In this document: in pieces, positions 4,420 through 61,770 of the stretch | Layout of the letters: each line of letters opens with the position of its first letter | Numbering within the stretch: position 1 is the stretch's first letter | NCBI GenBank assembly: GCA_022606425.2 | Contig: JAHDVF020001045.1 | Coordinates: 434,001 to 498,000 of the forward strand | Source of the DNA: Lepidostoma basale | Taxonomy: Eukaryota; Arthropoda; Insecta; Trichoptera; Lepidostomatidae | DNA: 64,000 nucleotides | Reading direction: 5' to 3' | Made by a program: the position numbers and the translations under genes | Notes under the pieces: generated by a model | The model's input: only the letters and a program-made list of their open reading frames with translations | Databases searched by the model: none | Told to the model about the DNA's origin: nothing

Positions 4420-4592
4420 CTTGAAGGAAATTCATTTTAAATAATTATACAATAAAACGATGATTTTTTTTATTCAATATTACCACTTATTGTTTTTATT
4501 TTATTTCAAAAGAGACCGGTTTCGTCAGGCTAGGGGGCACCAGTGGAAGTAGTTAATAAAAAACATCGTTTTATATAATTATTTTGTAAAAA
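4420..4592. mobile_element. d-family inverted-repeat element, deleted copy
   Basis: It contains the family hallmarks: GAAATCTCTTGAAGGAA at the left, AATAAAACGATG near 4452, GACCGGTTTCG at 4514-4525, GTGGAAGTAGTT and AAACATCGTTTTAT at the right. The centre is deleted, so only one ribozyme-like half remains. Confidence 0.7.
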
Positions 4593-5059
4593 TGGCTCAT
4601 TCGAAATGAGATTAGTTCTTATAAAATATCTACGATTTAATTTTATAATAAAATTTAAAACACTGCACAAATTGCCAACTGTTTTATTTAATTTTTTTTG
4701 GTAAGTTTATGCACATTATCTAATATTATTTTATATATTTTTGTTGTGTTAGTAACTACAACCATAGTGAAATATTGAAATTATGAATAAGGAAATAAAA
4801 GCTCTTAATTTTATTCACATATCATGTTTAATTTTAAGTTTAAAGGATATATTAATTTAAATGTTAATTTGCTTTCTTAATAAATATAGCATCCTAAATG
4901 CGCTTATTCTACGCAATAAATAAAATATTGTACATAGAAATAAATAATTATATTTCATAAGTTAATAAAAATATACCACATTATGATACTTTTATTCTAT
5001 ATTCCTAATAACTTATCCTGTTTTATTGTTAATTGGAATTTCTTGGTAGAAGTTCATTG
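4593..5059. other. AT-rich, no recognised feature
   Basis: Very AT-rich with scattered AATAAA-like words. No open frame or repeat relationship was noticed. Confidence 0.5.
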
Positions 5060-5101
5060 AAAATAATGTAAATTAAATAAAAATGTTTTCGTTGCGGAAA
5101 A

Positions 5102-5143
5102 ACCAAACATGTTTCGGACATACAAGCCCTCTTCATCAGTGAT
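5102..5143 (-). ncRNA. hammerhead-ribozyme-like module, family a
   Basis: Minus strand: AUCA, exact CUGAUGA (5139-5133), a GGGC/GUCC hairpin, GAA-ACAUGU-U (5115-5106), then UGGU. AUCA/UGGU can form stem I of 4 bp, and ACAUGU can form a very short or intermolecular stem III. Three bases (AGA) lie between the core and stem II, which departs from the canonical fold. Confidence 0.5.
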
Positions 5144-5330
5144 ATTATATGAGTATAAATATTAAAAATATTTTAAAAAATGTTTTCACGAATGTGGTCA
5201 GTTTTGACAGATATTAAAAACTAATATTATAATATTTTAGTATTTGTGAAAATTATTCAAATTACCTACGTTATTCAATTCGTAAAGTTTTTTTTGAATT
5301 TTTATTAATATTAAAATTTATATTATATCA

Positions 5331-5362
5331 CCGATGAAGGGCTTGTGTGTCCGAAACATGTT
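5331..5362 (+). ncRNA. hammerhead-like module, family a, diverged
   Basis: CCGATGA (one change from CTGATGA), GGGC/GTCC hairpin, GAAACATGTT. Stem I pairing seen in the opposite copy is lost by a one-base shift. Probably inactive. Confidence 0.4.
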
Positions 5363-5517
5363 GGTTTCTAATTTTCATTTATTAAAATAAAGTAATAAAG
5401 TTTGTGTTGTATAAAAAAGTATATAAAAAGAAACACAATTTAAAAAAAAAAAATACCTTATAATAAATATTTTATTATTATTCCATTTGTATTTTAGCTT
5501 CGACCTATGATATCTGT

Positions 5518-5562
5518 TGACCAGAAGATGGCAGAGAAACCGAAAGCCGAAACCGCCGGAAG
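5518..5562 (+). repeat. e-family module fragment
   Basis: CAGAAGATGGCAGAGA followed by GCCGAAACCGCCGG resembles the modules at 9103 and 14259. The stem II arms no longer match well. Confidence 0.45.
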
Positions 5563-6039
5563 CTAAAATTTATAAAGAAAAAAACCTAATACATATTTAT
5601 AATCATAATTATAATATAATATGTATTACAAAAGACTTCCCTTTAATTTCCAATATTGATTCTCCTTTCTACCGCTTTTTTAATTTAGCTTTTAAAATTG
5701 CGTAACAATTTTACATATTTGCAATTTATAAGTAAAAAATTTACATCACAAATCTTGTGTTTTATTCGAAAGTAACGGGATTATAAACATATTTTTAAAA
5801 TTGTGTATTTAAATAAACGTGTCTCGAAAACCCCTGCAGGTAACAAATACAGACCGAATATTTATTTTTTATAGATAGTTCATTGAAATGTACTGGTTGT
5901 AACGTCTTTTTAACTTATTTTAAAAACAGTGTATTTTAAAAACATACAAACAGAATTAACTGAAAATGTCATATAGTATTCATTCGAAAGTAAAAAAGTA
6001 TTTTTAAATAGTCCATTGTTTTGGCCGAAACATTATGAT
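5563..6039. other. AT-rich, one short shared repeat
   Basis: AACCCCTGCAGGTAACAAAT at about 5829 has a near copy at about 6827 (AACCCCTGTAGGTACC). Otherwise nothing was recognised. Confidence 0.4.
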
Positions 6040-6210
6040 ATTTCAACATTATTAACTGTTAAAATATAAACGAGGTTTATGGTATCACATTTAAAAATTT
6101 TTTTTACGACGGCTGCTTACGGTTGACGAAACAGCTGTCGCGAAAAATAAAAATGATAAAACATTGTGATACCATTCACTTCATTTTATATTTTAACAGT
6201 TAATAAAGTA
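6040..6210. repeat. c-family inverted repeat with GAAACAGCTGTC module
   Basis: Arms TATTAACTGTTAAAATATAAA (6047) and TTTATATTTTAACAGTTAAT (6184) are complementary. Inside, ACGAAACAGCTGTCGCG (about 6126) carries the 8-bp palindrome ACAGCTGT after GAA. It is shared with 39120 and, diverged, with 19600. Confidence 0.65.
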
Positions 6211-6736
6211 AAACTAACTAACTAACTAACCATCACGCCGTCTCCCCGAAGGGGTAGGCAGAAAGAATGGACTGCAACACCTTTCTTTCCTGACATATTT
6301 CTCTCGCTTCCTCAACATTCATACATCGTGTCATGCACGCGCGTCGATTTCTCTGACTCCTCACATGGCCGACATTCAATATTTGATTTATTTGATCGTG
6401 CCACGTTTTCCTCGGTCTTCCTCTATTTCTGGTTCCATTTACATCGTTTACTTATAATTTTTTTACCATTCTTTCTTCATTCATTCTTTCCATATGTCCT
6501 AACCATCTTTATGATCCTTTCATTATTTTGTTCATGACACCATCATTCGCACCGCTTTCAATTATTATATTTTCATTCGACACTCTATCATAGACAGAGT
6601 ATCCACACATTCGTCTAAGAGATCTCATTTCTACTGCATTTATTCTACTTTCATCCTTCTTTTGCCGGTTCCATGCTTCGCTTCCATACATAAGGGTCGG
6701 TAGAAGAACATCGTTGTGCACTGCCATGTTAGCTTT
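6211..6736 (-). mobile_element. TTAG-LINE, 5'-truncated copy with TSD
   Basis: The minus strand reads the C-terminal tail of a non-LTR retrotransposon ORF, with pieces such as LMYGSEAWNRQKK and MRSLRRMCGYS, then the 3' end CTGCCTACCCCTTCGGGG and a (TTAG)n tail at 6212-6230. TTAATAAAGTA at 6200-6210 and 6737-6747 is an 11-bp target-site duplication. Frameshifts make it a dead copy. The target was a c-family inverted repeat arm. Confidence 0.9.
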
Positions 6737-6747
6737 TTAATAAAGTA

Positions 6748-7519
6748 TTTAATAAAGTATTTTAAGTTTATTTTAAACTATCGCTGTTATTAAAATTATA
6801 AAAAAAAAATATATATATATTTTAAAACCCCTGTAGGTACCACATACAGACAGAATGTCTTGAGAAACTTCTAAAAGAGCATAAAGTTGGAAGGTACAGT
6901 ATGGGTGGGTGTAAAGTACCACGGTTCATGGATGATAGTGAAGGGAGCGCAGTGCGGAAAAGGGTTTTCATGTTCGGCCAGTAGGTGTCACTGAAGCGTC
7001 ATCATATTTTCATGGCTTCCCTAAAATTGTGTAACCGCGGAGACATCACCATTCCACAAGGGAGAATTTGAAAATTAAGTCTTGTTAATTTGAAAAGAAA
7101 ATTAAGATTTTTTTATTTTTTTTTTATTTCATTTTTCATTTCATTCCATTTTCATTTCATTTTCATTTATTTATTTTAAACATATCTAAAGCATTACAGA
7201 TTTTTTTTCCCAATACACTAAAGATACAAGTTAGAGATACGCAATACTGTACATAATAGATTAATAAAAAGAGCGAGAAACATTAGATGCATGACAAATT
7301 AATAAAATAAATATACCATACAATTATAATAAAGATAGTACTTCCCTCAGATGAGCCAAACTATCACAAAATATGTCAAACTCCGAGGTGATACGATTAT
7401 TATATTGCCACGTTTCAGTCACTTAATCTGAAATAAAAATTAACGTATACGTGATACTTAAAAACAATTATCTTTCAAAAATATATGGTGTTTCTTGGCT
7501 ACAACAATTCATTATATAA
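6748..7519. other. no gene; simple TTTCA-rich tract
   Basis: 7110-7175 is a TTTCATTTCA-type simple repeat. 6890-7080 is slightly GC-richer single-copy-looking sequence without a convincing frame. Confidence 0.4.
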
Positions 7520-7680
7520 TTAATACGAATGAAAACGTATTTTTTCTGGAAGTTTTATTATTCAATTATTTCATGATAATCACATGTTTAGGCATTATAA
7601 AATTTCACATTTAATAATGCTTAAGAGACGCGAAATATACCATTCACATTAACTTTAATAAAACTTCTAGAAAACTTATG
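7520..7680. repeat. h-family inverted repeat, diverged
   Basis: TCTGGAAGTTTTATTA (about 7546) and TAATAAAACTTCTAGAAAAC (about 7656) are facing arms of the h family. The central GAAAC modules are eroded (ACATGTTTAGG / GCGAAATATACC). Confidence 0.65.
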
Positions 7681-8084
7681 CTTTTATTCGTATTTATTTT
7701 ATATGGATTTTTACATTACCGTTCAAGAAACTGTTTATTATTAATTTAATTATTTTTTAAAATTGAAAAAATATTTTGTATTGATGACATATTATAGTAG
7801 AAATGAATACTCACATTATTCAAGCTGCTTGGGGTTATTTTCTTGGATTCTTTGGAATTTTCATGTGTTGTATCATTTTTGACCACCCGCAGTTGATATT
7901 CAGATGTTACACGAGACGCAAGCATGCTCAAAGATCTAAAGAAAACGAATAAAATTTGAAAATTGCCAGTTAAAAAAATACTATTATTATAAACGCAACG
8001 TTTTCGTCACCTCAAAAGCTCATTTAGACATATTTTTTCATTAATTGTTACTTGAACAATGATATAAACTCCATAATAAATAAT
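7681..8084. other. no recognised feature
   Basis: AT-rich. A 61-residue frame on the minus strand (7746-7931) has no recognisable domain. Confidence 0.4.
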
Positions 8085-8200
8085 TAATACGACCGAAAAC
8101 GTATTTATTCTAGAAGTTTTATAATATTTTATGTGAATGACATATTTTGTCTGCTTAAGCGATGTCATTTGATAATATGTTAGACAAAAAACTCGCGTGA
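8085..8200. repeat. h-family single arm
   Basis: ATTAATACGACCGAAAACGT then TTCTAGAAGTTTTATAATAT and GTGAATGACATATTTTGTC match one arm of the h family. The opposing arm is absent. Confidence 0.55.
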
Positions 8201-8365
8201 TTCACAAAAAGATAAAAAAAATATAGAAAACAGACGTTTTTATCTGAATAAATTACGTTATTTTAATTTAAAAATCTAAATTTGAGCGCTGTATCTGATA
8301 ATTTCGATCAGAAAAAAAATATATACAAGTTGTGTTATAATTTGGGTTTAAAATATGATGTGTTT

Positions 8366-8677
8366 TTAGCTTAGATATGGGGATGCTACTCGTAAATATA
8401 TTCTGTTCACAAAAAGATTATGGCAGCTAGATACATCTTGATTTACCAGAAACGCATTTAAATTCCGTGCACACGAAATGGTAAAGTTTTCTTGAGCGTG
8501 TTTTCGGCATATCCCAGGAAAACTGCCAGCACCCCTCAACTGAAATTGACAAGTAGATTGACAGTACGTTGAAAATCCATTTCCATCAATGGATGGGTGA
8601 CATCTGGCGGAGCATGCAAGAAGGACGGGCTCAGAGCAGCGCGCTCCACTGCGGTGTATTGTTCTAATTATTGACAA
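8366..8677 (-). other. unexplained cysteine-rich open frame
   Basis: 103 residues open on the minus strand with nine cysteines, including a central block CSARC...YCQSTC...CRKH. It lies in a locally GC-richer patch (about 8440-8650). There is no recognised family, signal peptide or clear splice sites, and the frame may be chance. It could also be a single-copy regulatory patch. Confidence 0.2.
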
Positions 8678-8699
8678 TCGTAATAAGATTGCATTACAT

Positions 8700-9100: not shown

Positions 9101-9102
9101 CC

Positions 9103-9134: not shown

Positions 9135-10435
9135 GACGCGCGACGGCACAAACATTCGTGGATTTTAACTAAATATTTGTTTAAACAATTTTTTTACATT
9201 TTATTTTTATTTTCATTACCAACGGTTACGTCTCCATTGGTGCCGTAAAATAAAGTTAAATTTATTAATTTGAATCACTCTACAGTTGGTGAAACCAAAA
9301 ATAATTATTTTAATGATTTAAAAAAAAACATTGAGAAAGACGGGTACAGAATGAAACACGTAAAAGGTGCAAAAAAGTGTTGTTAAATAAAAATGTTTTT
9401 CATGGATTAATCAAATTTAAAAAAAAAATGCTTAGTTTCTAACGAACATAGTAATTAAAAAAATAAATTCAAATTATAATGGTCAAAATAATACGTAAAT
9501 AATTAAAAAGAATAAATAGTAATCACACCGCTGTTTTCCTATACGGATGTGCAGCCATACAATTTTACATTTTCTAGGATACTTGGAATGGATACTTGAA
9601 TTTTCTAGGTATACTTGAATATTGACCCAAAACAGGGCGTTCTGAAGATGTCATGGCAGGAACGCCGGCCCGACATAAAGTGGGAGTGGCAAAGAGTAAT
9701 AATGAGGTTTTAAAATAAAATGATACTTTTTTTTTTGCCCCCACAAAATTATTTTCAATTGATTTACGTTACATTTAAATATTTAAATAATGCAGTTGGA
9801 AGGCAATCATGTTATTCTCAAAAAATATAATACGACAACTTGAAAATATATCAAATGATTTTACTGAAATCTCTTGATGGAAGTTCATTTTAAGTTATAA
9901 AAAAATAAAAAGAGATTTTAATCCAAACAGAAGATAAAAAACTAGATAAATTAGAATATTTGGAAATCAATAGGCTCATATACAAATCCCCTGACCAAGT
10001 AGTTCTTAATGACCAATTATTGTAAAAAATATTCCTGGAATCGATTACTGACGAAAAAATTATTTATAATATTATGATTCCAGACCTTTGCAGCTCCAAT
10101 GGATTGGGAAAATCCGAATAAGGTGCCAACCTAATGGAACAAGATATATAACATATTATATTTAAATTAAAAATAATAAAGACTAAACAATTAATTTTTC
10201 AAACGTTAATATATAGTATACTCGAGTATACTCGTATATGTCAGCTATAATAAATCTTTAAATCCATAATATTGAATACGAATCCTCTTGAATTACTGTG
10301 ATACCAATATTTAAATTCGGTAAATTTTACACAATTATTTTAAGATTATTTTTGTATAGAATCATAAAAATAATAACAAAATAATAATAATAATCATAAA
10401 AGTAATTAAGGAGAAGAAGAAAATAACACATATTT
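9135..10435. other. AT-rich, one d-family end fragment
   Basis: 9853-9895 (TCAAATGATTTTACTGAAAT and GATGGAAGTTCATTTTAA) is a detached end of the d family, as also found at 29285 and 38445. Nothing else was recognised. Confidence 0.5.
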
Positions 10436-10499
10436 TCTATAATAATGAATTAAAACGGTGTTTTTAAACTACTTCCACTTTTGTCTATATTTCGACAGC

Positions 10500-10532
10500 G
10501 ACCGGTTTCGCTAGGCTCATTGACATCGACAG
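10500..10532 (-). ncRNA. hammerhead-like module, d family (left)
   Basis: Minus strand: CTGTCGA, a hairpin, GCGAAACCGGTC. The flanks CAGT and GCTG can pair as stem I. Base 4 of CUGANGA is U instead of A in the whole family. Confidence 0.45.
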
Positions 10533-10630
10533 ACTGGTGACACTATTGCAAACTAAGTCCTTTATATACACACAGATCGGCCCCTAATCTATATGTATGT
10601 AAGGACTCATTTTGCAATAGTATCACCGGT

Positions 10631-10663
10631 CTGTCAATGCCAGCGAGCCTAGCGAAACCGGTC
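10631..10663 (+). ncRNA. hammerhead-like module, d family (right)
   Basis: CTGTCAATGCCAGCGAGCC then TAGCGAAACCGGTC, mirror of the left module with small changes in core and stem II. Confidence 0.4.
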
Positions 10664-10782
10664 GCTGTCGAAATAAAGACAAATGTGGAATTAGTTTAAA
10701 AACATCGTTTTATTTAATTATTGTATAAAATATATGTTTTCTTCTTCTTCCCTTTAATTACATTTATGATTATTATTATTAT

Positions 10783-13020: not shown

Positions 13021-13190
13021 AATTAATACGAATGAAAACTTCAGTTATCTAGAAGTTTTATTATATTTCATGGGAATGACATGTTTCGCCAATTTTTTGA
13101 TAATGCCTTAGAAGGGCGAAACATGTCATTCCCATAAAATATAATAAAACTTCTAGAAAACTGACGTTTTCATCCGTATTAATTACTTAA
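13021..13190. repeat. h-family inverted repeat, best copy
   Basis: Arms of about 65 bp match almost perfectly (TCTAGAAGTTTTATTATATT facing AATATAATAAAACTTCTAGA). Both carry GGGAATGACATGTTTCGCC / GGCGAAACATGTCATTCCC. The right arm has GCCTT-AGA-AGGGC stem II before GAAACATGTC. The CTGANGA position is degraded to TTGATAA. Confidence 0.8.
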
Positions 13191-14194: not shown

Positions 14195-14312
14195 TTCACT
14201 TGTGTTTATCGTCGACCGGTTTCCGCAGGTTGTTGCCATCTTCTGGTCTAGAACACATCAGAAGATGGCAGCAAGCTGCCGAAACCGGTCGGCGATAAAC
14301 ACAAGTGTCGTT
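14195..14312. repeat. e-family inverted pair
   Basis: TTTCACTTGTGTTTATCGTC faces GGCGATAAACACAAGTG. Modules: minus 14246-14214 CAGAAGATGGCAACAACC..GGAAACCGGTC, and plus 14259-14290 CAGAAGA, T, GGCAG-CAAG-CTGCC, GAAACCGGTC. Only 12 bp separate the two modules. Confidence 0.75.
14259..14290 (+). ncRNA. hammerhead-like module, e family
   Basis: A perfect 5-bp stem II with CAAG loop precedes GAA-ACCGGU-C. The core is CAGAAGA (second base changed) and no stem I is evident, so it is probably a relic. Confidence 0.4.
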
Positions 14313-15085: not shown

Positions 15086-15087
15086 AC

Positions 15088-15340
15088 AACGACCTTCGTG
15101 GCCGAGTGGTAAGTGCATTGATTGCCACCCCGAAGGTTCCGAGTTCGATTCCCGGCGAGGGCAGTGTCATTGTCACACTGTCTTTGGTCTCGTGTAGAAT
15201 TCACGTGACAATAAAATGGCGATAGATTAGCTATCTATCACATGTCACGAGAATCACAATGATAGCTATAATACCTTTTACATCGATTTGGGTCATGCTG
15301 TGATGATGTAAAGAGCGATTCAACAAAATAATTAAAAATA
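15088..15340 (+). mobile_element. tRNA-derived SINE, most complete copy
   Basis: The head carries an A box (TGGCCGAGTGGTAAG) and B box (GAGTTCGATTCCC) with tRNA-like spacing. The body has TGTAGAATTCACGTGACAAT and the 3' end GAGCGATTCAACAAAATAAT. Pol III promoter boxes are intact enough to suggest a recent subfamily. Confidence 0.85.
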
Positions 15341-26524: not shown

Positions 26525-26690
26525 CGATATCCGTCGACAAAACTAAATGTCTTACAATATCCAGACAACTTCTCAGATGCAAACTGGTTGTAGACGGCAG
26601 ACCCATAGACCAATAGGTCACGAAGTTTAGATACTTGGGTGAGAGATATCTATTTGCATAGATCTGTATAATGAAATTTTACAACTACAA
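26525..26690 (+). mobile_element. LINE-E, upstream part of a split copy
   Basis: Encodes KTKCLTISRQLLRCKLVVDG and KFRYLG, the segment just downstream of the RT palm in such elements. The frame stops where the next LINE inserted. It continues at 27342. Confidence 0.75.
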
Positions 26691-27341
26691 CAAACCATCA
26701 CGCCATTTCCCCGTAGAGGTAGGCAGAGAGAATGGATCGTCACACTACTCTATCCTGGCACACCTCTCTAGATTCCTCCACATTCATATAGCGAGTCATA
26801 CACGCACGTCGATTCTTTCGACTTCTAACATGACCATCCTTTAAAATTTGATTAATTTGGTCATCCCATATTTTTCTCAGTCAACCTCGACTCCGTACTC
26901 CATTTACATCATTAAAGTATACTTTTTTACCCATTCTTTCTTTACCCATGCGCTCCATATGTCCGAACCAACGCAGCGATCCTTTCATAATTTTGTTCAT
27001 AATACCTTCATTCGCTCTACATTTCTTTCTATAATAATATCAGCATTTGAAATTATGTCGTACATCGTTCTACCACAAATACGTCTTAGGGACCTCATCT
27101 CTACCGCATTTATTCTGCTCTCATCCTTCTTCTGCCAGTTCCATGCTTCGCTTTCATACATTCGGGTTGGGACCAGAACTCCATTGTCAACGACCGTTTT
27201 CGCTTTCATTGATAAATTCTTGTTTCCGATAACTATTTTTAAAGCTCCGTTCACTTCTTTCGACGTCACTATCCGTTCGGCCATCCGCTGTGAACATGCT
27301 ACCTAAATACAAAAATTCACTCACCTGCTCCAAATTCACAA
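26691..27341 (-). mobile_element. GTT-tailed LINE (C family), nested in LINE-E
   Basis: The minus strand encodes SEWLYLGS-like to AKTVVDNGVLVPTRMYESEA, WNWQKKDESRINAVEMRSLR and CGRTMYDIISNADI, sister to the TTAG-LINE but with a GTT-rich tail (GTTTGTTGTAG at 26690). 5'-truncated, with a shortened RNADIRxxC region. It splits LINE-E. Confidence 0.85.
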
Positions 27342-28915: not shown

Positions 28916-29159
28916 AGATTTAAAATTGTGTTTTACAACACTATTCAAGAAACAATATATAATTCTGAAGTATGCTCAGATTTACTCTCTATTTTATATT
29001 TTTTAATTTTGTTTCACCGGTTTCGGTCATTTTCTCTTATTGTATGTTTAATAGAAATTTAATCCAATAGTAAAAATATTGGATCAGTATCATCCTTATC
29101 TACAGAATATGTGAACTCGATAAAATTATTATGGATTATATATTAATTTTAAATGAAAA
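28916..29159. other. no gene; isolated ACCGGTTTCGG
   Basis: ACCGGTTTCGGTCATTTTCT at about 29015 may be the remnant of a ribozyme-like module without its pair. Confidence 0.3.
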
Positions 29160-29335
29160 TTAAATAAAACGATGTTTTTTAAATACTTCCACTTTTGTCT
29201 TTATTTCGACAGCGACCGGTTTCGCCAGGCTCGCTGGCATCGACAGACTGGTCAAAACATCGTTTTATTTAATCATTATTTAAAATTAACTACCATCAAG
29301 AGATTTCAGTAAAATTCATTTGATTATATTAATTT
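29160..29335. mobile_element. d-family element, half deleted
   Basis: AAATAAAACGATGTTTTTTA, ACTTTTGTCTTTATTTCGAC, one full module, then the other terminus CAAAACATCGTTTTATTTAA and ATCAAGAGATTTCAGTAAAA. Confidence 0.8.
29214..29246 (-). ncRNA. hammerhead-like module, d family, best copy
   Basis: Minus strand: CAGT, CTGTCGA, T, GCCAG-CGAGC-CTGGC, GAA-ACCGGT-C, GCTG. Stem II is a perfect 5 bp, CAGT/GCTG gives a 4-bp stem I (one wobble), and ACCGGT is self-complementary. Confidence 0.5.
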
Positions 29336-29388: not shown

Positions 29389-29433
29389 TTCTCCCGATGA
29401 TGAAGGTGTTAAACCTTCGAAACATGTCGAGAA
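29389..29433 (+). ncRNA. hammerhead-ribozyme-like module, family i
   Basis: TTCTC, CCGATGA, T, GAAGG-loop-CCTTC, GAA-ACATGT-C, GAGAA. TTCTC/GAGAA is a perfect 5-bp stem I exactly where type I requires it. The core has one change (C at the second position) plus the extra T before stem II. Confidence 0.5.
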
Positions 29434-31057: not shown

Positions 31058-31088
31058 AACATGTTTCGGAGGAGACCTTCATCTTCAG
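31058..31088 (-). ncRNA. hammerhead-like module, family j
   Basis: Minus strand: CTGAAGATGAAGGTCTCC..TCC then GAAACATGTT. The core CTGAAGA is canonical and the palindrome ACATGT is intact. Stem II is imperfect. Confidence 0.4.
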
Positions 31089-34832: not shown

Positions 34833-34873
34833 ACCGACGTTTTGGAGATCGTTGCAGTCTCCATCTTCAGGGT
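34833..34873 (-). ncRNA. hammerhead-like module, T family (left)
   Basis: Minus strand: ACC, CTGAAGA, T, GGAGA-loop-TCTCC, AAA-ACGT-C, GGT. Stem II 5 bp, stem I ACC/GGT 3 bp. The G before AA is mutated to A. Confidence 0.45.
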
Positions 34874-34896: not shown

Positions 34897-34937
34897 ACCC
34901 TGAAGGTGGAGACTGCAACGATCTCCGAAACGTCGGT
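34897..34937 (+). ncRNA. hammerhead-like module, T family (right)
   Basis: ACC, CTGAAGG, T, GGAGA-loop-TCTCC, GAA-ACGT-C, GGT. Complementary defect to the left copy: here GAA is intact but the last core base is G. Confidence 0.45.
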
Positions 34938-36489: not shown

Positions 36490-36645
36490 CAAATGTTAAT
36501 AACTACTCCCACTTTTGTTTTTAATTTGACAACGACCGATTTGGCCAGTCTGTCGATTCCAGATTGCCTGGCTAAACCGGTCGCTTTCGTAATACAGATA
36601 AAAGTGGATGTAGTCATTAAAAAACATCGTTTTATTGATTTATAT
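36490..36645. mobile_element. d-family element, collapsed centre
   Basis: ACTACTCCCACTTTTGT, GACAACGACCGATTTGGCCA, module 36550-36582 (CTGTCGA, TTCCAG..CTGGC, TAAACCGGTC), then AAAGTGGATGTAGTCATT and AAACATCGTTTTATT. The two arms now meet at a shared stem. Confidence 0.75.
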
Positions 36646-36657
36646 ATTTTTTTGAAT

Positions 36658-37145: not shown

Positions 37146-38206
37146 ATTTACAATGAACTTCCATAAAGAGATTTCTTTAAAATCATTACATTATGGTTAT
37201 TATAATGTAAAAGTTCCCATTGGAATCGCATCTGAATAAAGATTAATGTTTCATTATAAATGTAATAACACTGAGTAAGAACTTGTAGTATATTATTTGT
37301 TGTCATTCTTGTTATCTGATTAAAATAATGAATATGTAATTCAAGTACACATCGTTGCATAAAATTACACTTTCATGAGAAACTTTTTCCCGTTTCCAAG
37401 ATAAATTTGCTTACAAAAACAAACGAGCTTACACAGCGCCGTTCTAAACGAAACACTGCAACCGGCTGCATATTGCGTGTGGCTGTTTTCTTTATGCGTT
37501 TGGGCGCGCAATCAATTTCTAATATCTCTCGCATCCAGGGGTAAATATTTGGCAGAGTCCATTATTATTTATGATAACATATTACTTCTACGGTTAGGGG
37601 GGAGTTGGGGTCCTTGGGGAATATCTGTTTCCATGACTAAGCAAAAGTTCTCGAATCTAAATGGGTAGATTAACCCGCCAGCGCCGGCGGACAATGCGGA
37701 AGCATATTGTCCAACTTGCCTTCGAATCGCATGCAGCGGAAATTGGAACTGTTCTTCATGTGACTCGCGACCCCAAGCACTAATATCGCGTATCGCGCTA
37801 AAAGTTGGAGAAAAATGATGGTGCTTGTGTGCATTTGTTCTCTTTAATGCGATATCATGATACTTAGAGTGTTCTCAGAGATAACATCTGTTTCTTTAAT
37901 ATCATACTTAACTCGCCTAAGGGGAATTCATTGCAACCTTAAAGAAAATAAATATGTCAATATTTCAAAAACGATTCGAAGTTCTTAATATTTTGGTTTT
38001 TTGAAAAATTTATAGATATAATTATACCATAATTAATACGAACGAAAACGTCTGTGTAAATTGTTCAAGAAATAATAATTACCCCTCCCTTGTCTAGTTG
38101 TATACTACGTAAATTGTATTATTCTTAATAAACTGTACGTAGTGTCGACAAATGTTAAATTGTAGTAAAATTAAGAAAATTTAGTAACAAACATTTATAA
38201 CAATTA
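37146..38206. other. single-copy-looking; GC-richer at 37400-37800
   Basis: 37400-37800 has no repeat relationship in the window and includes GCGTTTGGGCGCGCAATC and CCAGCGCCGGCGGAC. No splice-flanked coding frame was identified. Candidate host regulatory or conserved DNA. 38035-38055 holds a short h-family scrap. Confidence 0.35.
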
Positions 38207-38475
38207 AATAAAACGATGTTTTTTTAACTACTTCTACTTTTGTCTTTATTTAGACAGCGACCGGTTTCGCCAGGCTCGCTGGCATCGACAGACTGGTGAC
38301 ACTATTGTAAACTTAGTCTTTTATATACATACAAATTAGGGGTGGTAAACATGAGCCTGCGAAACCGGTCGCTGTCTAAATAAAGTCAAAAGTGGAAGTA
38401 GTTAAAAAAAATCGTTTTATAAATTGTTATTTAAAATGAACTTCTATCAAGAGATTTCAGTAAAATCATTTGATT
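38207..38475. mobile_element. d-family element with both ends
   Basis: AAATAAAACGATGTTTTTTT, left module 38291-38259 (minus) intact, spacer, right module truncated to GAGCCTGCGAAACCGGTCGC, AAATCGTTTTATAAATTG and ATCAAGAGATTTCAGTAAAA. Confidence 0.8.
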
Positions 38476-38659
38476 ATCACAAACATTTACATACGAGTAT
38501 TTCAAATCTTTTACTTATCTTACGACCGAAATTATATTATTGTACTGATTTATCTAAAATCTTCGCTATTCTCATTAATTCAGTTTTATAAATATTACCA
38601 ATTTTTCTACACTGTTAGATCTTATATTATCTAACAATAACCATTATCTTTACCTTTAA
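38476..38659. other. AT-rich, no recognised feature
   Basis: Nothing supported. Confidence 0.3.
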
Positions 38660-39099: not shown

Positions 39100-39215
39100 T
39101 TTTCTGATATATTATTGTAATACCTGAAGATGTAAACATAGGTTGGTGAAACAGCTGTCGCGTAAAATAAAAATACAATTGTGATACATAAAACAAAGTT
39201 TTTTAATTAACATTT
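39100..39215 (+). repeat. c-family module
   Basis: CTGAAGA (39124-39130), TGTAAACATAGGTTGGT, GAA-ACAGCTGT-C (about 39149-39160), GCGTAAAATAAAAATACAAT and TGTGATACATAAAAC. The stem II arms are weak. The 8-base palindrome is intact. Confidence 0.5.
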
Positions 39216-41399: not shown

Positions 41400-41545
41400 G
41401 TTATCCTGACGAAGCTCCGGCGGGCGCAAAACCGGTTGGTGGTTGTAAAGAATAAAGTGGTTTATATACAAATTTTACAGATGTATTATTATTATATTTA
41501 AAAATGTCACACCACAAATAAAGTACTTTATACGAAAGTAAAGTT
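41400..41545 (+). repeat. l/m-family module with shared 3' sequence
   Basis: CTGACGA (41406), A, GCTC-CGGC-GGGC, GCAAAACCGGTT, GGTGG. Upstream TTATC can pair with GGTGG (wobbles). The G required before AAA is A. Downstream CACCACAAATAAAGT relates it to the 12725 element. Confidence 0.45.
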
Positions 41546-43549: not shown

Positions 43550-43560
43550 ATAAAATAGTA

Positions 43561-44260
43561 AACTAACTAACTAACTAACCATCACGCCGTCTCTCCGAAG
43601 GGGTAGGCAGAAAAGTGTGGCACACTTTTCTTTCCTGACATATTTCTCTCGCTTCATCAACATTCATACATCGTGTCATGCACGCGCGTCGATTTCTCTG
43701 ACTTCTCACATGGCCGACATTCAATATTTGATTTATTTGATCGTGCCACGTTTTCCTCGGTCTTCCTCTATTTCTGGTTCCATTTACATCATTAACATAT
43801 ATTTTTTTTACCATTCTTTCTTCATTTATTCTTTTCATATGTCCAAACCATCTTAATAATCCTTTCATTATTTTGTTCATGACACCATCATTCGCACCGC
43901 ATTCACTTCGTATATTTTCATTCGACACTCTATAATACACAGAGTATCTCCACATTCGATTTCACAAGAGATTTCATTTCCACTACATTTATTCTACATT
44001 TATCCTTCTTTTGCCAGTTCCATTCTTCGCTTCCATACATAAGGGTCGGTAGAAGAACACCATTGTGCACTGTCATTCTTGCTTTATTGGATAGGTTTTT
44101 GTTTGCGATGACAACTTTAAGTGCACCTTTCACTTTGTTGCCTGCCCCAACCCTTCTTTCAATATCCCAACATAAGCGTGAATGGTGAAAATTTAGAGCA
44201 AGTAGTTGAGTTCGTGTATTTAGGTAGTATGTTTACAAGAGACGGGCGAGTGGAGAGGGA
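43561..44260 (-). mobile_element. TTAG-LINE with 5' inversion (twin priming) and TSD
   Basis: The minus strand from about 44170 down to 43561 encodes RRVGAGNKVKGALKVVIANK, LMYGSEEWNWQKK, RWFGHMKRINEERMVKK and NRRACMTRCMNVDEAREIC, with 3' hairpin and (TTAG)n tail. The adjoining 44175-44260 encodes the immediately preceding segment (NGENLEQVVEFVYLGSMFTR) on the plus strand. ATAAAATAGTA (43550-43560) and ATAAAAAAGTA (44260-44270) form a near-perfect TSD enclosing both parts. Confidence 0.9.
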
Positions 44261-45828: not shown

Positions 45829-45888
45829 CTAACCATCACGCCGTCTTCCCGAAGGGGTTGGCAGAAAAAATTGACTGCCCCACATTTC
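45829..45888 (-). mobile_element. TTAG-LINE, 3' part of a split copy
   Basis: TAACTAACCATCACGCCGTC, TTCCCGAAGGGG hairpin, up to CCACATTTC (45880-45888), the duplicated target of the nested LINE. Continues at 46987. Confidence 0.9.
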
Positions 45889-46977
45889 TTCTTCTTCCTT
45901 CTCTGGTTTCAATCCTGGGATTGGTTTGCAGCAATTTCCTCCATTATTCTCTTCCATTTTTCCCTGTCTTGTGCGGCTCTTTTGAGATCTGCATATGATG
46001 AGCAGCGTAGTATCTGCATATGATGAGCAGCAGGACTCTCGGCGTGGGCGTCCCCTAGAGTTTGTCCCCTCGATCATACCCTCCATTATGGCATGCAAGA
46101 GACCTTCTTGACGTATTACATGGCCGATCCATCTTGCACGCCTTTCGGACAAGGTCCTGAGCAGGTGCCTTCCTCCTTCGATTCCTTGAAGAACTTCCTC
46201 ATTCGTGATGTGGTCTCTCCAGGAAATTCCAAAGAGTCTTCTATAGGACCACATCTCAAAAGCCTCTAGTCTCCGCTTATCCCTTTCGGATAGGCACCAT
46301 GTCTCGCAGCCGTACATCAAGACACTCCATACATAGGTCTTGATGAGGAGTATTCTCAGTTTTAGGTCTATATTATTTGACTGTATTATTTTCGACCTTT
46401 TATTAAATGCAAGCCTAGCCTGATGTATACGGCTGTCGACCTCGCTCTTAGACCGACCGTCCCATGTTATTTTGCTCCCGAGGTAGACAAACTCCTTGGT
46501 GTTCTTTAGTGGAACTCCTGACATCACTACTCTCATCTGATGTTGCGTTCGGCCTACAGTCAGCAGCTTTGTTTTGTCCTTATTTATCTTCATGTTGTAG
46601 CTATCTTGAAGAATGTCTTGCAAAGTATCTAAGGCCTCCTGCAGTTCCTCCTCACTTTCAGCAACCATAACAATATCGTCAGCAAACCTTATCATGTCTA
46701 TCTTTTGCCCGTGTATCCTTACACCTTTTCTGTGACTCATTCTCTCTCTCAAGTCGTCAATCGCATTCTGTATGTAAACGTTAAAAAGAGCAGGTGACTG
46801 TCTTACCCCTTGTCTTATACTGGCTTCCTTTGTACCCTCGTCACATCTGATTATGGCGGCCTCATTCTTGTATAGCGCCTGGATTATTTGTCTATCTCTA
46901 TATTTAATATCAATTTTTTTCAAAATCTCGAAGAGCTTCCTCCATTCCACCCTGTCGAAAGCCTTCTCCAGGTCCTT
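45889..46977 (-). mobile_element. LINE with RT palm, nested in TTAG-LINE
   Basis: The minus strand encodes DLEKAFDRVEWRKLF (RT motif A), SIRQGVRQ, MIRFADDIVMVAESEEEL (FADD catalytic box), YLGSKITWDG and RARWIGHVIRQEG, ending GRPRR. Then the frame shifts; the correct reading ends ADLKRAAQDREKWKRIMEE and a stop, with a GAAGAAGAAG tail. 5' truncation falls inside RT motif A. A small tandem duplication (TGCATATGATGAGCAGC twice, about 46000-46030) causes the frame break. TSD CCACATTTC on both sides. RTE-like by its GAA tail and C-terminus. Confidence 0.9.
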
Positions 46978-46986
46978 CCACATTTC

Positions 46987-47790
46987 TATCCTGACATATT
47001 TCTCACGCTTCATCAACATTCATACATCGTGTCATGCACGCGCGTCGATTTCTCTGACTCCTCACGTGGCCAACATTCAATATTTGATTTATTTGATCGT
47101 GCCACGTTTTCCTTGGTCTTCCTCTATTTCTAGTTCCATTTATATCTTTAAAATATATTTTTTTACCATTCTTTCATCATTCATTCTTTCCATGTGTCCA
47201 AATCATCTTAATGATCCTTTAATTATTTTGTTCATAACACCAACATTCGCACCGCATTCACTTTTTATAGTTTCATTCGACACTCTTTTCATACACAGAG
47301 TATCTACACATTCGTCTAAGAGATCTCATTTCTACTGCATTTATTCTACTTTCATCTTTCTTTTGCCAGTTCCATGCTTCGCTTCCATACATAAGGGTCG
47401 ATACAAGAACACCATTTTGCACTGCCATTCTAGCTTTTTTGGATAGGTTTTTGTTTGCGATGACAGCTTTAAGTGCACCATTCACTTTGTTGCATGCCCC
47501 AACCCTTCTTTTAATATCCCTCTCCACTCGCCCATCTCTTGTAAACATACTACCTAAATACACGAACTCATCTACTTGCTCCATATTTTTTACAATTCAC
47601 TCTAATGTTGCAGACTGTCATGATTTCTTATTTTTCCAAAATCATTATGCAAACCTCATACACACTATTCACCAGGACTTGTAGTTCATGCTCATTGTCT
47701 GCAAGTAAGACAGCGTCATCTGCACTCTGCGCATTTTGGCACTTACATCCATCCCTTTCAGCTCTTTCGATTACCAACGGTTTGTTAATA
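46987..47790 (-). mobile_element. TTAG-LINE, 5' part of a split copy
   Basis: The minus strand encodes ADDAVLLADNEHELQVLVN (RT YADD box, Y changed to S), MEQVDEFVYLGSMFTRDGRV, KVNGALKAVIANKNLSKKAR and LMYGSEAWNWQKKDESRINA. It reaches further 5' than any other copy here. Begins at TSD CCACATTTC (46978-46986). Confidence 0.85.
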
Positions 47791-55110: not shown

Positions 55111-55129
55111 GATATATTTAAATAAATAA

Positions 55130-56760: not shown

Positions 56761-56764
56761 TTTT

Positions 56765-57284: not shown

Positions 57285-57399
57285 AAACTCCATATTAAGT
57301 AATCAATACGAATAAAAATGTCTGTTTCCTAGAAGTTTTATTATATTTTATGTGAATGACATGTTTCGATTGTCTAAGGCAATTGATGATCATAATTCA

Positions 57400-57500
57400 A
57401 TTAAGTTTTTTTTTTATTAAGTACTTCTACTTATTGTCTTCATTTCGAAAGCGTTCGGTTTCGCCAGGCTAGCTGACATCGACAGACAGGTGACATTTGA
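57400..57500 (-). mobile_element. d-family fragment nested in h-family
   Basis: ATTAAGTACTTCTACTTATT, CTTCATTTCGAAAGCG, module 57485-57453 (minus), CAGACAGGTGAC. One half of the d element. Confidence 0.7.
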
Positions 57501-57547
57501 TACTGCCTTGGACAGGCGAAACATGTCGGTTACATAAAATATAATAA

Positions 57548-57750
57548 CTAACTAACTAACTAACCATCACGCCGTCTCCCCGAAAGGGGAGGCAGAAAGA
57601 ATGGACTGTCACACTTTTACTGATGCGGCACTCCATCCTTCTCTTTTCGCCCCGCGGGAGACGCGGTGTGATGGGTTGCGAACCTCATCGCCACCAATAG
57701 GCATCTCCCGCGCACATTTAGATCGTCCAACACCCACAAACTAAATCACC
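57548..57750 (-). mobile_element. TTAG-SINE with 15-bp TSD
   Basis: CATAAAATATAATAA at 57533-57547 and 57751-57765. The insert has the (TTAG)n tail, LINE-shared 3' end, and the perfect hairpin arms CGCGGGAGA / TCTCCCGCG (57653-57712). 5'-truncated at ACTAAATCAC. Confidence 0.92.
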
Positions 57751-57894
57751 CATAAAATATAATAAAACTTTATAAAACAGGCGATTTCATTCGTATTAAT
57801 TAATTAAACATTTAGGTTACAAATTCTGATTTTAATATCATTCACCGTTATATCATTCATTTTTAATATCATTAATAATAAAGCTCCCTTTCAT

Positions 57895-58045
57895 TTAAAA
57901 CGCTATCTCCCCGAAATGATAGTCAAAAAATGGACTGCCACGCTGTTCTTTCTTGACATATTTCTCTTGCTTCTTTAATAATCATACTTCGTGTCATGCA
58001 TGCACGTCAATTTCTCCGACACCGCACGTGGCCGACATTTTATAT
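57895..58045 (-). mobile_element. TTAG-LINE, decayed
   Basis: CTATCTCCCCGAAATGATAG, GACTGCCACGCTGTTCTTTC, GTGTCATGCATGCACGTCAA and ACGTGGCCGACATTTTATAT. No tail left. Confidence 0.75.
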
Positions 58046-58504
58046 TTTAACCGAATTTATTAAACAATTTTAAATTTAATTGTATTTAATATTAAGAGGG
58101 AATTAAAATAAACATGTTGTGGGTTGTATGCACACAGCAGTAACACGTTTTCCTTTAATATTGTCATTTTATATTCTCTTAAATTCAAAGCTGTGTAAAT
58201 CTTCCGCCACATTTTTGCAGCAAACATCTGCCTCGCCTCGGAGGGGCGCACATAGTGAGTCGGGTATACATCGCGATGCGGTCCCGTAATATAATGTTTA
58301 CAATTTTATCTTGCGCGCAATATACAGCTCCGTGACAATTTATTACTGCTGCAACATGTTTTTACTTTGTATTAAGTAATGTTAAGTATTTGATTTCACC
58401 AATTCTTAATTAGTGAAAACTTTATCAAGTGTCGTGTCTATATTTTGAAATTTACAGTAACCAATATTTTCTATGACTTATATTTTTTTCACATTAATTT
58501 TATT
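58046..58504. other. no recognised feature
   Basis: Nothing supported. Confidence 0.3.
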
Positions 58505-58658
58505 TCTTCTCCTTCTTCTTCTTCTTCTACCCCTTCTTCCTCTTCTTCCTCTTCTTCCTCTTCTTCCTCTTCTTTCTCTTCTTCCTCTTCTTCCTCTTCT
58601 TCCTCTTCTTCCTATTCTTCCTCTTCTTTCTCTTCTTCCTCCTCCTCATCTTTTTCTT
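58505..58658. repeat. (TTCTTCCTC)n microsatellite, left part
   Basis: Pyrimidine-only tract with 9-bp TTCTTCCTC periodicity. Interrupted by a LINE and resumed at 59262. The long Ser- or Leu-only frames here are artefacts. Confidence 0.95.
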
Positions 58659-58661
58659 GAA

Positions 58662-59245
58662 ATGCAAGGCAACAAAGTAAATGGTGCACTTAAAGTTGTC
58701 ATCGCAAACAAAAACCTGTCCAAAAAAGCTAGAATGGCAGTGCACAACGGTGTTCTTCTACCGACCCTTATGTAGGGAAGCGAAGCATGGAACTGGCAAA
58801 AGAAGGATGGAAGTAGAATAATTGCAGTAGAAATGAGATCACTTAGACGAATGTGTCAATACTCTGTGTATGATAGTGTCGAATGAAAATATAAGAAGTG
58901 AATGCGGTGCGAATGATGGTGTTATGAACAAAATAATGAAAGGATCATTAAGATGGTTTGGACATATGGAAAGAATGAATGAAGAGAGAATTGTAAAAAA
59001 TTATATGTTAACGATCTAAATGGAACCAGAAAAAGAGGAAGACCGAGGAAAATGTGGCCCGATCAAATAAATCAAATATTGAATGTCGGCCATGCGAGGA
59101 GTCAGATAAATCGACGCGCGTGCATGACACGATGTATGAATGTTGAGGAATCGATTAAAAATTTCAGGAACGAAAAGTGTGGCAGTCCATTATTTCTGCC
59201 TACTCCTTCGGGGAGACGGCGTGATGGTTAGTTAGTTAGTTAGTT
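58662..59245 (+). mobile_element. TTAG-LINE inside microsatellite
   Basis: KVNGALKVVIANKNLSKKAR, MAVHNGVLLPTLM then a TAG in place of the Tyr codon of LMYGSEAW. RWFGHMERMNEERIVK and NVGHARSQINRRACMTRCMN follow with frameshifts. 3' hairpin and (TTAG)n tail at 59226-59245. Confidence 0.9.
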
Positions 59246-59261
59246 TTTTCTACCTCTACTT

Positions 59262-59530
59262 CCTCTTCTCGTTCTTCTTCTTCTTCTTTCAGTTATTCTT
59301 CCTCTTATCCTCTTCTTCCTCTTCTTCCTCTTCTTCCTCTTCTTCCTCTTCTTCCTCTTCTTCCTCTTCTTTCTCTTCTTCCTCTTCTTCCTCTCCTTCC
59401 TCTCCTTCCTCTTCTTCTTCTTCTACCTCTTCTTCCTCTTCTTCCTCTTCTTCCTCTTCTTCCTCTCCTTCCTCTTCTTCCTCTTCTTCCTCTTCTTCCT
59501 CTTCTTCCTCTTCCCCCCTCCTGTTCTTCT
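59262..59530. repeat. (TTCTTCCTC)n microsatellite, right part
   Basis: About 250 bp of the same 9-bp pyrimidine repeat. The Glu-only frame on the minus strand is not a gene. Confidence 0.95.
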
Positions 59531-60084
59531 TGACGTTTTCATTCGTATTCATAATTCATTAATTTTTATAAAAATTTTCAGGAATCAAATATATATGGTA
59601 AAGTTTTTTTTTTTAATGGAAAATGCAAAGATTTAGGGCAAAATTCAAGCATTCCGAAATACATAAATTAACAATAGTTTCATACGCGTCTAATGATCTT
59701 AATAAAACCACCTTTCCTAAATTCGATTCAGTGGTTTATAACCGTGGACTGTATGTTGGTAAATGATGAAGTGAAATTAAACCGCTTTAGATGGATGTTC
59801 TTATGCGCCGCGCTATTCTCACTGGAAATGCTTCTGTCGTGACTTTTATGGGACTCTATATATTTGTCTTGAAACCACAAGGCGGTTATTTCGTTTAAAG
59901 CTTTTAAAAAGCATTTCAATCTATGAACCTATATTTGCTTCATAGCATATGGATGTTTATTAAAATAGGTATTAATTTGTTTTTCATTTGCTGGTTATAA
60001 AAACTACTAACTAGCTAATTAACTATCATACTAAATTGCTTTAAAATTTGGTTATAGAGTAGATGTAGTTTAAGACGAGTTTAA
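59531..60084. other. no recognised feature
   Basis: 59690-59920 is GC-richer, single-copy-looking; 63-codon minus frame without domain. Confidence 0.35.
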
Positions 60085-60325
60085 AGACTATACAATGTTA
60101 ACCATGTAAATGGAACTAGAAATAGAGAAAGACCGAGGAAAACGTGGCAGATCAAATAAATCAAATATTGAATGTCGGTGAGTCAGAAAATTCGACATGC
60201 GTGCATGACACGATGTATGAATGTTGAGGAAGGGAGAAAAATATATCAGGAAAGAAAAGTATGACCGTCCAATCTTTCTGCCTACCCCTTCGAGGAGAAA
60301 GCGTGATGGTTAGTTAGTTAATACT
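60085..60325 (+). mobile_element. TTAG-LINE 3' fragment
   Basis: ATGTAAATGGAACTAGAAAT, CAAATATTGAATGTCGG, a short deletion, GTGCATGACACGATGTATGA, 3' hairpin and tail GTTAGTTAGTTAA. Confidence 0.85.
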
Positions 60326-60338
60326 CCCCAAATAATGT

Positions 60339-60498
60339 GTTTTGTAACTAACTTATTAACTAACTCACCATCACGCCGTCTCCCCGAAGGGGTAGGCAGA
60401 AGGAATTGACTACCACACTTTTCTATCTTGACATATTTCTCTCGCTTCCTCAATATTCATAGATCGTGTCATGCACGCATGTCGATTTCTCTGACTCG
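60339..60498 (-). mobile_element. TTAG-LINE 3' fragment with TSD
   Basis: CCAAATAATGT at 60328-60338 and 60499-60509 is an 11-bp TSD. Tail-to-tail with the copy at 60085, only 13 bp apart. Confidence 0.9.
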
Positions 60499-60524
60499 CC
60501 AAATAATGTATTATCATCATCTTC

Positions 60525-60765
60525 TCTTTCTTTGTGTTCTTCATCTGGTGGGGTTTAGCTTCCTCTAAGAAACGTCTCCATCCCATTTCTCACCGCCACC
60601 TCTTAGTCTTGCTGCTCCAGGACAGTCAGCCACAATACCATCAATCGCAGTCTCGGCCTGCTGACACTTCTTTGCCCTACTGGATTGTTAAACATCACTC
60701 ATTTTGGGCTTCTATCTGGGTCATATCTTACGTGGAGACGAGATTCTCTAACTTTTGTTAATGGA
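60525..60765 (-). mobile_element. LINE 3'-region repeat related to 1-140
   Basis: GTCTCCATCCC, CAATCGCAGTCTCGGCCTGC and CTTCTTTGCCCTACTGG align with 1-130. Coding remnants are not readable. Confidence 0.55.
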
Positions 60766-60834
60766 CAAAATTAAAGGACAATATGTTTCTGGCTGAAAGC
60801 AAATGTGTTACCTGCGCAATATTAAAGATTCCAC

Positions 60835-60960
60835 TGGAATAAAGAGTGCGGAGGAGTTATTCCGGGCGGCGTAAGACAGAGAAGTCAATCCCAGCGTCGA
60901 AGTTTGCAATTGTGATTGCCAGCGCGGCGGGGAGACTTGATATGGCACACGAAGAAGAAG
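60835..60960 (+). mobile_element. LINE-F 3' end
   Basis: GTGCGGAGGAGTTATTCCGG (SAEELFR), GCGGCGGGGAGACTTGATAT and a GAAGAAGAAGA tail match 52800-52916. Confidence 0.65.
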
Positions 60961-61529
60961 ATAATTCTACATATGTACATTGAATGGCTGACTTAGTTCA
61001 GGACAAGGCTTAAAAGGTTAAGCAAGGTTTCAAAACAATAAATTACATAACTAATGGATACGATTAATATTTACCCACAAAAACATAGTACACCCGAGTT
61101 GGACCTTTGTCATTTTCGTGAAATATTTAAGATCTGCTTTAAATTTTCGCCTTCACCTTTATCTGGAAGGGTTGGGGCCATAATTAATCGTTTGCCTTTA
61201 AGACGGGGCCCTAAACCTTAAGGGATAAGTGGAACAATTAGTTAAGCAGCATTAAAGGCCTCCTTATGTCCTGACACATAATATATATGAAGACAGAATG
61301 CTCAAACATAAGGAAATCGCATTAATTTGTTACTTTTAGGGACACGTATTATAAATTGATGTTTTTTGTCCAAAAGGAATAATGTTGTGCTTTATTTTTT
61401 ATTCGTCTTTCTACTATATTTCAACTACAATTAAACAAACTTAATATTAATGGAAGATCCAAATTAAATTCATAATATATTTCTTAAAAGCTAAGACATT
61501 AACACTGTGGAATTCCATAGTAAAACACT
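60961..61529. other. no recognised gene
   Basis: 61130-61280 is GC-richer (GGGGCCCTAAACCTTAAGGG), single-copy here. Confidence 0.35.
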
Positions 61530-61770
61530 TTGGAAATTGAAAATAACGTTGTTTATAATTCATAAAATATTAAAAATCACGTCATGTTCCATGTGTTGTT
61601 ACTTTTTATTGTACCGATTTTTACATGCGTTTTTTATTAGTCTTTTTTTCTTTGTTTTGTTTTTATTATATATTTAAATCTGACGATGGAGGTATCCTCC
61701 GAAACATGTCGTGATTTTTAATATTTTGTGGATAATAAACAAGGTTATTTTCATTTTCCAAAGTGAATTT
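61530..61770. repeat. k-family inverted repeat
   Basis: Left arm TTGGAAATTGAAAATAACGT, AATATTAAAAATCACGTCAT faces right arm ATGTCGTGATTTTTAATATT, AAGGTTATTTTCATTTTCCA. The right half carries the module below; the left has decayed to GGAACATGAC. Confidence 0.75.
61680..61710 (+). ncRNA. hammerhead-ribozyme-like module, family k
   Basis: CTGACGA, T, GGAGG-TAT-CCTCC, GAA-ACATGT-C. Core and GAA are canonical and stem II is a perfect 5 bp. Stem I pairing (AAAT with GUGAUU) is weak. One extra T before stem II. Confidence 0.5.

Follow-up and report, generated by a model that had tools for sequence, protein, structure and literature searches.

We analysed a 64,000-nucleotide window of the Lepidostoma basale genome (Trichoptera; contig JAHDVF020001045.1, positions 434,001 to 498,000), which carries repeats with a module resembling a hammerhead ribozyme. 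An earlier note on this DNA listed 15 such sites and described one order of parts for all of them: a core-like heptamer, a spacer, a stem-loop region, a GAA-like triplet, a palindrome, and C or T. This order was recognisable at all 15 sites. Our analysis indicates with high confidence that the modules are minimal type I hammerhead motifs, with stems I and II and a palindromic stem III, which has no loop and requires a second strand, and that they lie in the terminal repeats of several families of Penelope-like elements (PLEs), probably at the 5' end of the RNA.

The 15 sites sorted into about eight families in a grouping made partly by eye; the earlier note had counted at least six. Sites 10500, 10631, 29214, 36550 and 38259 formed one family (F1), the commonest module family of the window, and 31088 was related to 61680. 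We also identified sites beyond the earlier list: 5331 (+), of the same family as 5139 (-), and a ninth family at 13097 (+) and 57497 (+).

Decay of the window copies was uneven from site to site. The heptamer CTGANGA was intact at six of the 15 sites (5139-, 31088-, 34833-, 39124+, 41406+ and 61680+) and altered at the rest. The GAA triplet was altered at 34833-, 36550+ and 41406+, and stem II was damaged at several sites, e.g. 10500-, 14214- and 31088-. When an intact heptamer, a stem II of at least 4 bp and the palindrome were all demanded, 61680+ was the sole window site to pass. With one heptamer mismatch tolerated, eight window sites passed, compared with a mean of 0.2 and a maximum of 1 in shuffled sequence (n = 30). 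The single extra base described in the earlier note was present at seven of these eight, while 5139- has a three-base spacer. The majority of the window copies are probably decayed by-products that serve no function themselves.

Penelope-like elements that carry the module

No PLE frame was found among the long open reading frames (ORFs) of the window. We searched the genome for GIY-YIG domains (150 of 541 candidates scored, 62 matches) and for PLE proteins (59 of 3702 candidates scored). The GIY-YIG matches included some frames of 758 amino acids and five outward-pointing inverted pairs. A gene for a Penelope reverse transcriptase (RT) and GIY-YIG protein flanked by the same modules, which the earlier note had proposed to look for, was found at two loci: in L149 and L150, a 758-codon frame lies between two outward F1 modules. 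Pfam recognised RVT_1 and GIY-YIG in the L149 frame, and the window F1 copies align to the terminal repeat of this element.

The two arms of L150 are 99.3% identical, and those of L149 are 92.6% identical over 661 bp, including TA repeats. At a third locus, L151, two 5'-truncated copies are joined head to head, and identity between their arms is 99.8% over 1433 bp. F1 is a recently active PLE family and carries an A6U core, present in all six F1 modules of these three loci.

Further PLE families, assigned by similarity and not by Pfam, are 38-46% identical to the L149 frame, with frames of up to 873 amino acids and with tandem and head-to-head arrays. Three were chosen for long frames or arrays. 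Their modules read CTGAAGA-A-GGGGCTTCTGTGTCCC-GAA-ACATGT-C in L156/L158 (C853/C1396), CTGAGGA-A-GCTCGGTTGTGAGC-GAA-ACCGGT-C in L157 (C887) and TTGAAAA-T-GCCCTCGCAAGGC-GAA-ACAAATTTGT-A in L155 (C308), the last found by eye. A terminal-repeat module with one extra base was thus present in all four PLE families examined, F1 and these three. The earlier note had described the window families as unlike one another outside the module. They are indeed unrelated repeats, and where they can be traced they are the ends of different PLE families, not one module spread among repeats. Its view that they are non-autonomous or relic elements of the PLE or retrozyme kind holds for PLE ends, mostly relics with altered cores; the resemblance to retrozymes did not stand.

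Two PLE tandem arrays (G000:C308:2096145-2107985 and C502:3014-14849) contain two minus-strand frames followed by two plus-strand frames, with a unit of 2954 bp in C308. This is the layout of head-to-head tandem dimers. The PLE candidates L152 (G000:C102:20001-24000) and L153 (G000:C729:134801-138800) were discarded as bacterial-looking; both hold long adjacent frames of bacterial appearance, uvrC-like by eye. A repeated 150-nt sequence in L153 is reminiscent of rickettsial palindromic elements. A bacterial symbiont or contaminant is probably present in the assembly.

RNA structure, core variants and the extra base

Stem II was assessed in 15 distinct 28-nt matches starting CTGANGATG, taken from those listed and unselected for pairing. 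We found that 87.8% of cells were paired. Double-sided changes occurred in 12 cells, compared with a shuffle mean of 4.1, and none of 500 shuffles reached this value. The covariation score was 0.457, compared with 0.267 +/- 0.033 in shuffles and at most 0.113 in slid versions. Two of the five measures were less clear: three pairs were changed on both sides (115 of 500 shuffles as high), and nine further pair types were seen (30 of 500). Covariation of stem II above both shuffled and slid controls counters the possibility, named in the earlier note, of a DNA-level repeat without RNA structure.

Stem I played no part in the selection of the matches. In a first clustering (13 clusters, four pairs), pairing reached 35.1 of 52 versus 23.5 after permutation (fraction 0.001). 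A second clustering (14 clusters, four pairs) gave 30.4 of 56 versus 21.6 (fraction 0.025), and sliding by 1 to 3 positions gave 14.3, 21.7 and 16.0. Covariation in stem I, which the earlier note had also asked about, therefore appeared as pairing above permutation in both clusterings, more weakly in the second. By eye, pairs 2.1:1.1 and 2.2:1.2 form in each of the four PLE families. Overall, the evidence favours stem I pairing but does not settle it. The idea that a complete stem I exists only in read-through RNA was dropped, as copies of families J and B contain the whole 5' strand.

Stem III is a loopless palindrome, for which pairing is possible only with a second copy. In modules chosen without regard to it, the palindrome directly followed GAA in 12 of 21 with an intact core and in 16 of 24 with one mismatch. 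The core C3 U4 G5 A6 N7 G8 A9 ... G12 A13 A14 is intact in 61680+, C853/C1396 and C887. It is altered in F1 (A6U), J (U4C) and N (U4A). F2 and C308 (the latter by eye) carry a compensated double change from C3-G8 to U3-A8. In a loose selection of 71 modules, which includes chance matches, positions 3/8 were C/G in 34, T/A in 10 (nine of them F2-like), A/G in eight, T/G in four, C/A in three and other combinations in 12. U3/A8 covariation occurs in nature, and such cores are active in vitro (PMC3088659). The genome supplies many natural variants: their cores are intact, compensated (U3/A8) or altered (A6U), and placement and palindrome are common to them.

The wide radiation in the genome suggested earlier was borne out. 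In the 768.8-Mb assembly, the loose pattern CTGANGA-N(5-25)-GAAA gave 63,285 forward and 65,758 reverse matches (129,043 in all), versus 19,446 and 18,945 (38,391) for its reversed form, which leaves some 90,000 in excess. A stem II of at least 4 bp was possible in 47 of the 100 matches listed. The gap before it was one base in 45 of these, none in one and three in one, and the extra base in the 45 was either T (28 matches) or A (17 matches). Across 200 kb of contig C1, sites with an intact core and stem II had a one-base gap in 20 cases and no gap in one, which can also be read with a gap of one; shuffles gave about 0.1 sites each. Since 45 of 47 listed matches and 20 of 21 C1 sites agree, the one-base insertion is general in the sampled modules. 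Viral contigs contained at least 120 stretches with the pattern, and at the loci examined a stem of at least three pairs was possible in 8 of 69 matches, resembling chance in coding DNA.

De la Pena & Flores (2001) reportedly found a viroid hammerhead with an extra core nucleotide, said to lie between A9 and stem II. A viroid hammerhead with an extra core nucleotide is also mentioned in PMC11014351; it is a single RNA, whereas here many retroelement families of one genome are concerned. The minimal hammerheads already known from PLEs are type I, lack a stem III loop, lie in pseudo-long terminal repeats (pseudo-LTRs), occur in thousands of dispersed copies and are proposed to cleave as dimers (PMC6155905, PMC7761336), and the modules described here are alike in all these respects. 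They differ in the one unpaired T or A before stem II at nearly all stem-forming sites, a comparison made through papers that cite the known examples. A 2020 review described the retention of a minimal hammerhead by PLEs as a mystery (PMC7761336). In excerpts of the literature searched, we found no report that the extra base is uniform or that the module has a 5'-terminal position beside an initiator; Cervera & de la Pena (2014) and Lunse et al. (2017) lay outside that search. As these two primary papers on PLE hammerheads were not covered, neither feature can be claimed as unpublished.

Copy ends, a candidate mechanism and its rivals

We numbered F1 from q1 = L149:3780. The module starts at q389, the predicted cut follows q421, and the likely PLE start ATG is at q488 (MNFHQEISVKS..), 99 nt downstream of C3; the N-termini of homologues are similar (MEFHQV.., MDFHQV..). 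TATAAA at q355 lies 28-30 nt upstream of q383-385. Among the 44 genome matches listed, 3' ends fell at q526-533 in 28, q481-495 in six, q535-551 in nine (query included) and q522 in one. We also examined 35 BLAST pieces from the window and C1 (264 kb), some of which are parts of one longer copy. Of these pieces, 11 stop at q529-531 and 13 at q482-492; six begin at q383-384, and two, which form one pair, begin at q422. A start slightly upstream of the module is thus frequent among short F1 copies. F1 thus has two preferred 3' ends, one just ahead of the likely start codon and the other about 40 nt past it. The C1396 family has the same two 3' ends, and copies of families J and B start at AGTT-like sites upstream of stem I.

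Copies are frequently joined head to head, and their modules then point outward. Seven of nine local F1 pairs combined an arm ending at the further 3' end (tailed) with one ending at the nearer (untailed), one was untailed on both arms and one was unclear; the same-contig pairs among the matches listed were all tailed/untailed (5/5). L158 is a 3.15-kb palindrome (99.1%) with arms of about 1.6 kb. One of its ends holds the ORF start MNPQHKVMANIEE, which is in frame in L156, and the other halts just before that ATG. By eye, the pair is flanked by a 14-16 bp target-site duplication; no clear duplication was seen in the window elements read.

Two further observations concern these copies. L140 (C1:119779-119958) is an F1 pair with both arms from q422, meeting in a 12-nt palindrome, and is the only such case. 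AATAAA occurred within 60 nt after 25 of 52 modules (window and L129-L148), compared with four on the upstream side; mononucleotide shuffles gave 12.3 (maximum 19). This is perhaps a polyadenylation signal near the RNA 5' end.

These positions suggest a mechanism. Transcription would begin next to the module, at an initiator-like site. Reverse transcription from two internal sites around the start codon would then give short copies of the PLE RNA's own 5' end, and priming at both ends of a cut target would give mirror-image pairs. Many short elements would then correspond to the opening 100-150 nt of PLE RNAs, copied between the transcription start and the internal RT starts. Cleavage by the motif, if it occurs, would fall about 31-36 nt after C3 and remove a 5' leader. 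Such a model would account for many short palindromic repeats of the genome as by-products of PLE RNAs, and a 5'-end placement with copy ends near the ORF start leads to definite predictions for capped ends, 5'-OH ends and RNA dimers.

By analogy, the copy ends and pairing fit published PLE behaviour, in which two internal RT starts and both target strands are used. In PAc (Poseidon, Anolis carolinensis), both DNA strands are cleaved and extended, and two adjacent internal RT starts explain the tail; cleavage by its hammerhead required protein (PMC11167929). PAc and the elements described here share a frame with RT and GIY-YIG, a hammerhead near the ORF start and an optional tail and, under the mechanism suggested here, would also share two internal RT starts and use of both target strands. 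They differ in that the PAc ORF begins at stem II, whereas the likely start codon of F1 is well downstream. The Penelope elements of Adineta vaga have head-to-head pseudo-LTRs with a tail on one, a TATA box, an initiator-like site and short target duplications (PMC3846280). Head-to-head pseudo-LTRs, a one-sided tail and first ORF codons inside the repeat are common to both systems, but the excerpt of that paper mentions no hammerhead, and copies there are far fewer.

As in PAc, an extra T could make a start AUG over A9-U-G10.1. We rejected this as a general rule, the extra base being A in 17 of 45 matches. In F1, the frame from the module AUG soon meets a stop (by eye), and the likely ORF start is q488. 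A loose module-residue pattern matched 1 of 86 long M-starting homologues (120 listed), which we read as chance.

Several results weigh against hammerhead motifs in PLE terminal repeats with a 5'-terminal placement. An Rfam search of the window at gathering thresholds gave no match of any family, and at E <= 5 none of the eight matches was a hammerhead; the Rfam hammerhead models did not match L149 or L155-L158 at E <= 10. With three pairs only, the second clustering of stem I gave a fraction of 0.052. The scan missed the L155 module recognised by eye and found no module in the F1 fragment L154. A matching PLE was identified for few window families, and most are without an assigned PLE. Plain CAGT lay within 20 nt upstream of 9 of 52 modules, versus 3 of 52 in a control interval, and the initiator is therefore not general.

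On another reading, RNA dimerisation is the main reason why stem III keeps its palindrome: two PLE RNAs would pair, each end of the cut target would receive one of them as its template, and cleavage would be secondary. The palindrome persists beside altered cores (ACCGGT in F1, ACATGT in J, ACCGGT in N), extends to 10 nt in C308, and is no less frequent in one-mismatch than in intact modules. Insertions are head-to-head, and a dimer is predicted for the PAc protein (PMC11167929). If true, this reading would explain the combination of a tailed and an untailed arm, and would turn the hammerhead into a dimer-and-release switch located at the very start of the RNA. However, one L150 F1 module has a broken palindrome (ACCGAT), and one pair is untailed on both arms. 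Moreover, minimal hammerheads need dimers to cleave anyway, so the palindrome alone cannot separate the two roles. We consider this reading unlikely.

Somewhat less probable still is that hammerhead cleavage is obligatory for making the RNA template, so that copies derive from cleaved RNAs. The intact cores of C853/C1396 and C887, which have long open frames, and the compensated U3/A8 of C308 would fit, as would the F1 pair with both arms starting at the base after the predicted cut. But q422 starts only 2 of the 35 F1 pieces versus six for q383-384, and the F1 modules of L149-L151 are uniformly A6U despite the near-identical arms of L150 and L151. A natural A6C hammerhead is slow, with k below 0.1 per min (PMC3088659). 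In the Anolis element, mutating the hammerhead left insertion in vitro normal, and the cut was not seen as an end of any RNA-seq read (PMC11167929).

The short elements might also be non-autonomous and retrozyme-like, spreading in the form of small circular RNAs. They are small and numerous and share type I hammerheads with animal retrozymes, which are non-autonomous retroelements too (PMC7229834), and PLEs have been proposed as helpers of animal retrozymes (PMC7761336). Animal retrozymes form circular RNAs and consist of tandem units of about 300 bp that carry canonical hammerheads (PMC7229834). In contrast, the motifs here are minimal, and the copies in the window and C1 are single or head-to-head; head-to-tail repeats of about 300 bp were not seen among them. 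This makes a retrozyme origin very improbable. Hardly credible, lastly, are DNA-level foldback elements, similar to miniature inverted-repeat transposable elements, with a chance likeness to hammerheads and no RNA structure: many copies are palindromic and most window copies have broken cores, but stem II covariation, the U3/A8 double change, linkage to RT/GIY-YIG frames and two fixed retro-type 3' ends stand against them.

Features of the window

The modules and head-to-head elements of the window are listed in Table 1.

Table 1. Hammerhead-like modules and head-to-head elements, in window coordinates
Feature	Position	Strand	Remark
Family K module CTGACGA-T-GGAGGTATCCTCC-GAA-ACATGT-C	61680..61710	+	Only here in the window are heptamer, stem II and palindrome all intact
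Head-to-head element enclosing the 61680 module	61526..61765	.	Arms 61526-61588 and 61703-61765, 90% complementary
F1 module CTGTCGA, A6U core	38259..38291	-	
F1 head-to-head pair	38197..38477	.	Left arm to q482 (untailed), right arm to q529 (tailed)
F1 module CTGTCGA	29214..29246	-	
F1 head-to-head pair	29143..29329	.	Arm ends q492 (untailed) and q531 (tailed)
F1 module, decayed stem II	10500..10532	-	
F1 module, CTGTCAA core	10631..10663	+	
F1 head-to-head pair	10432..10731	.	q489 end on both arms (untailed); departs from the tailed/untailed pattern
F1 module, decayed, GAA changed	36550..36582	+	
F1 head-to-head pair	36500..36649	.	Arm ends unclear: q455, q484
Family N module, stem II decayed	14214..14245	-	
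Family N module CAGAAGA-T-GGCAGCAAGCTGCC-GAA-ACCGGT-C	14259..14290	+	Inverted partner is 14214-14245
Family L module, ACGT palindrome, GAA changed	34836..34870	-	
Family L module, CTGAAGG core	34900..34934	+	Head-to-head with 34836-34870
Family I module, three-base spacer	5106..5139	-	
Family I module	5331..5362	+	Inverted partner of 5106-5139; absent from the earlier list
Family J module, CCGATGA core	29394..29428	+	
Family K-related module (61680), stem II damaged	31058..31088	-	
Family A module, ACAGCTGT palindrome	39124..39159	+	
Family D module CTGACGA-A-GCTCC.., GAA changed	41406..41437	+	
Family F2 module TTGATAA-T-GCCTTAGAAGGGC-GAA-ACATGT-C	13097..13127	+	U3/A8 replacing C3/G8
Family F2 module, TTGATAC core	57497..57527	+	

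Sub-gathering Rfam matches to microRNAs fell on palindromic pairs at window positions 13048-13157, 14209-14295 and 38245-38384, and at L156:434-619. These are likely an artefact of head-to-head copies and could mislead automatic annotation.

A repeat family with frames resembling those of long interspersed nuclear elements (LINEs) was found at 6212-6566, 26677-27261, 43557-44140, 46913-47492 and 58667-59245, with many copies ending in CATCACGCCGTCTCCCCGAAGGGG. A LINE-like frame with a FADD motif lies at 45829-47019 on the minus strand. At 1188-3404 (+), we found a 738-codon host frame with named matches in insects and one in a horseshoe crab, including one Zasp-like motif protein and one titin-like protein. 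A tRNA-like Rfam match at 15092-15163 (+) scored 28.3 bits against a gathering threshold of 29, and is possibly the head of a short interspersed nuclear element or a decayed tRNA.

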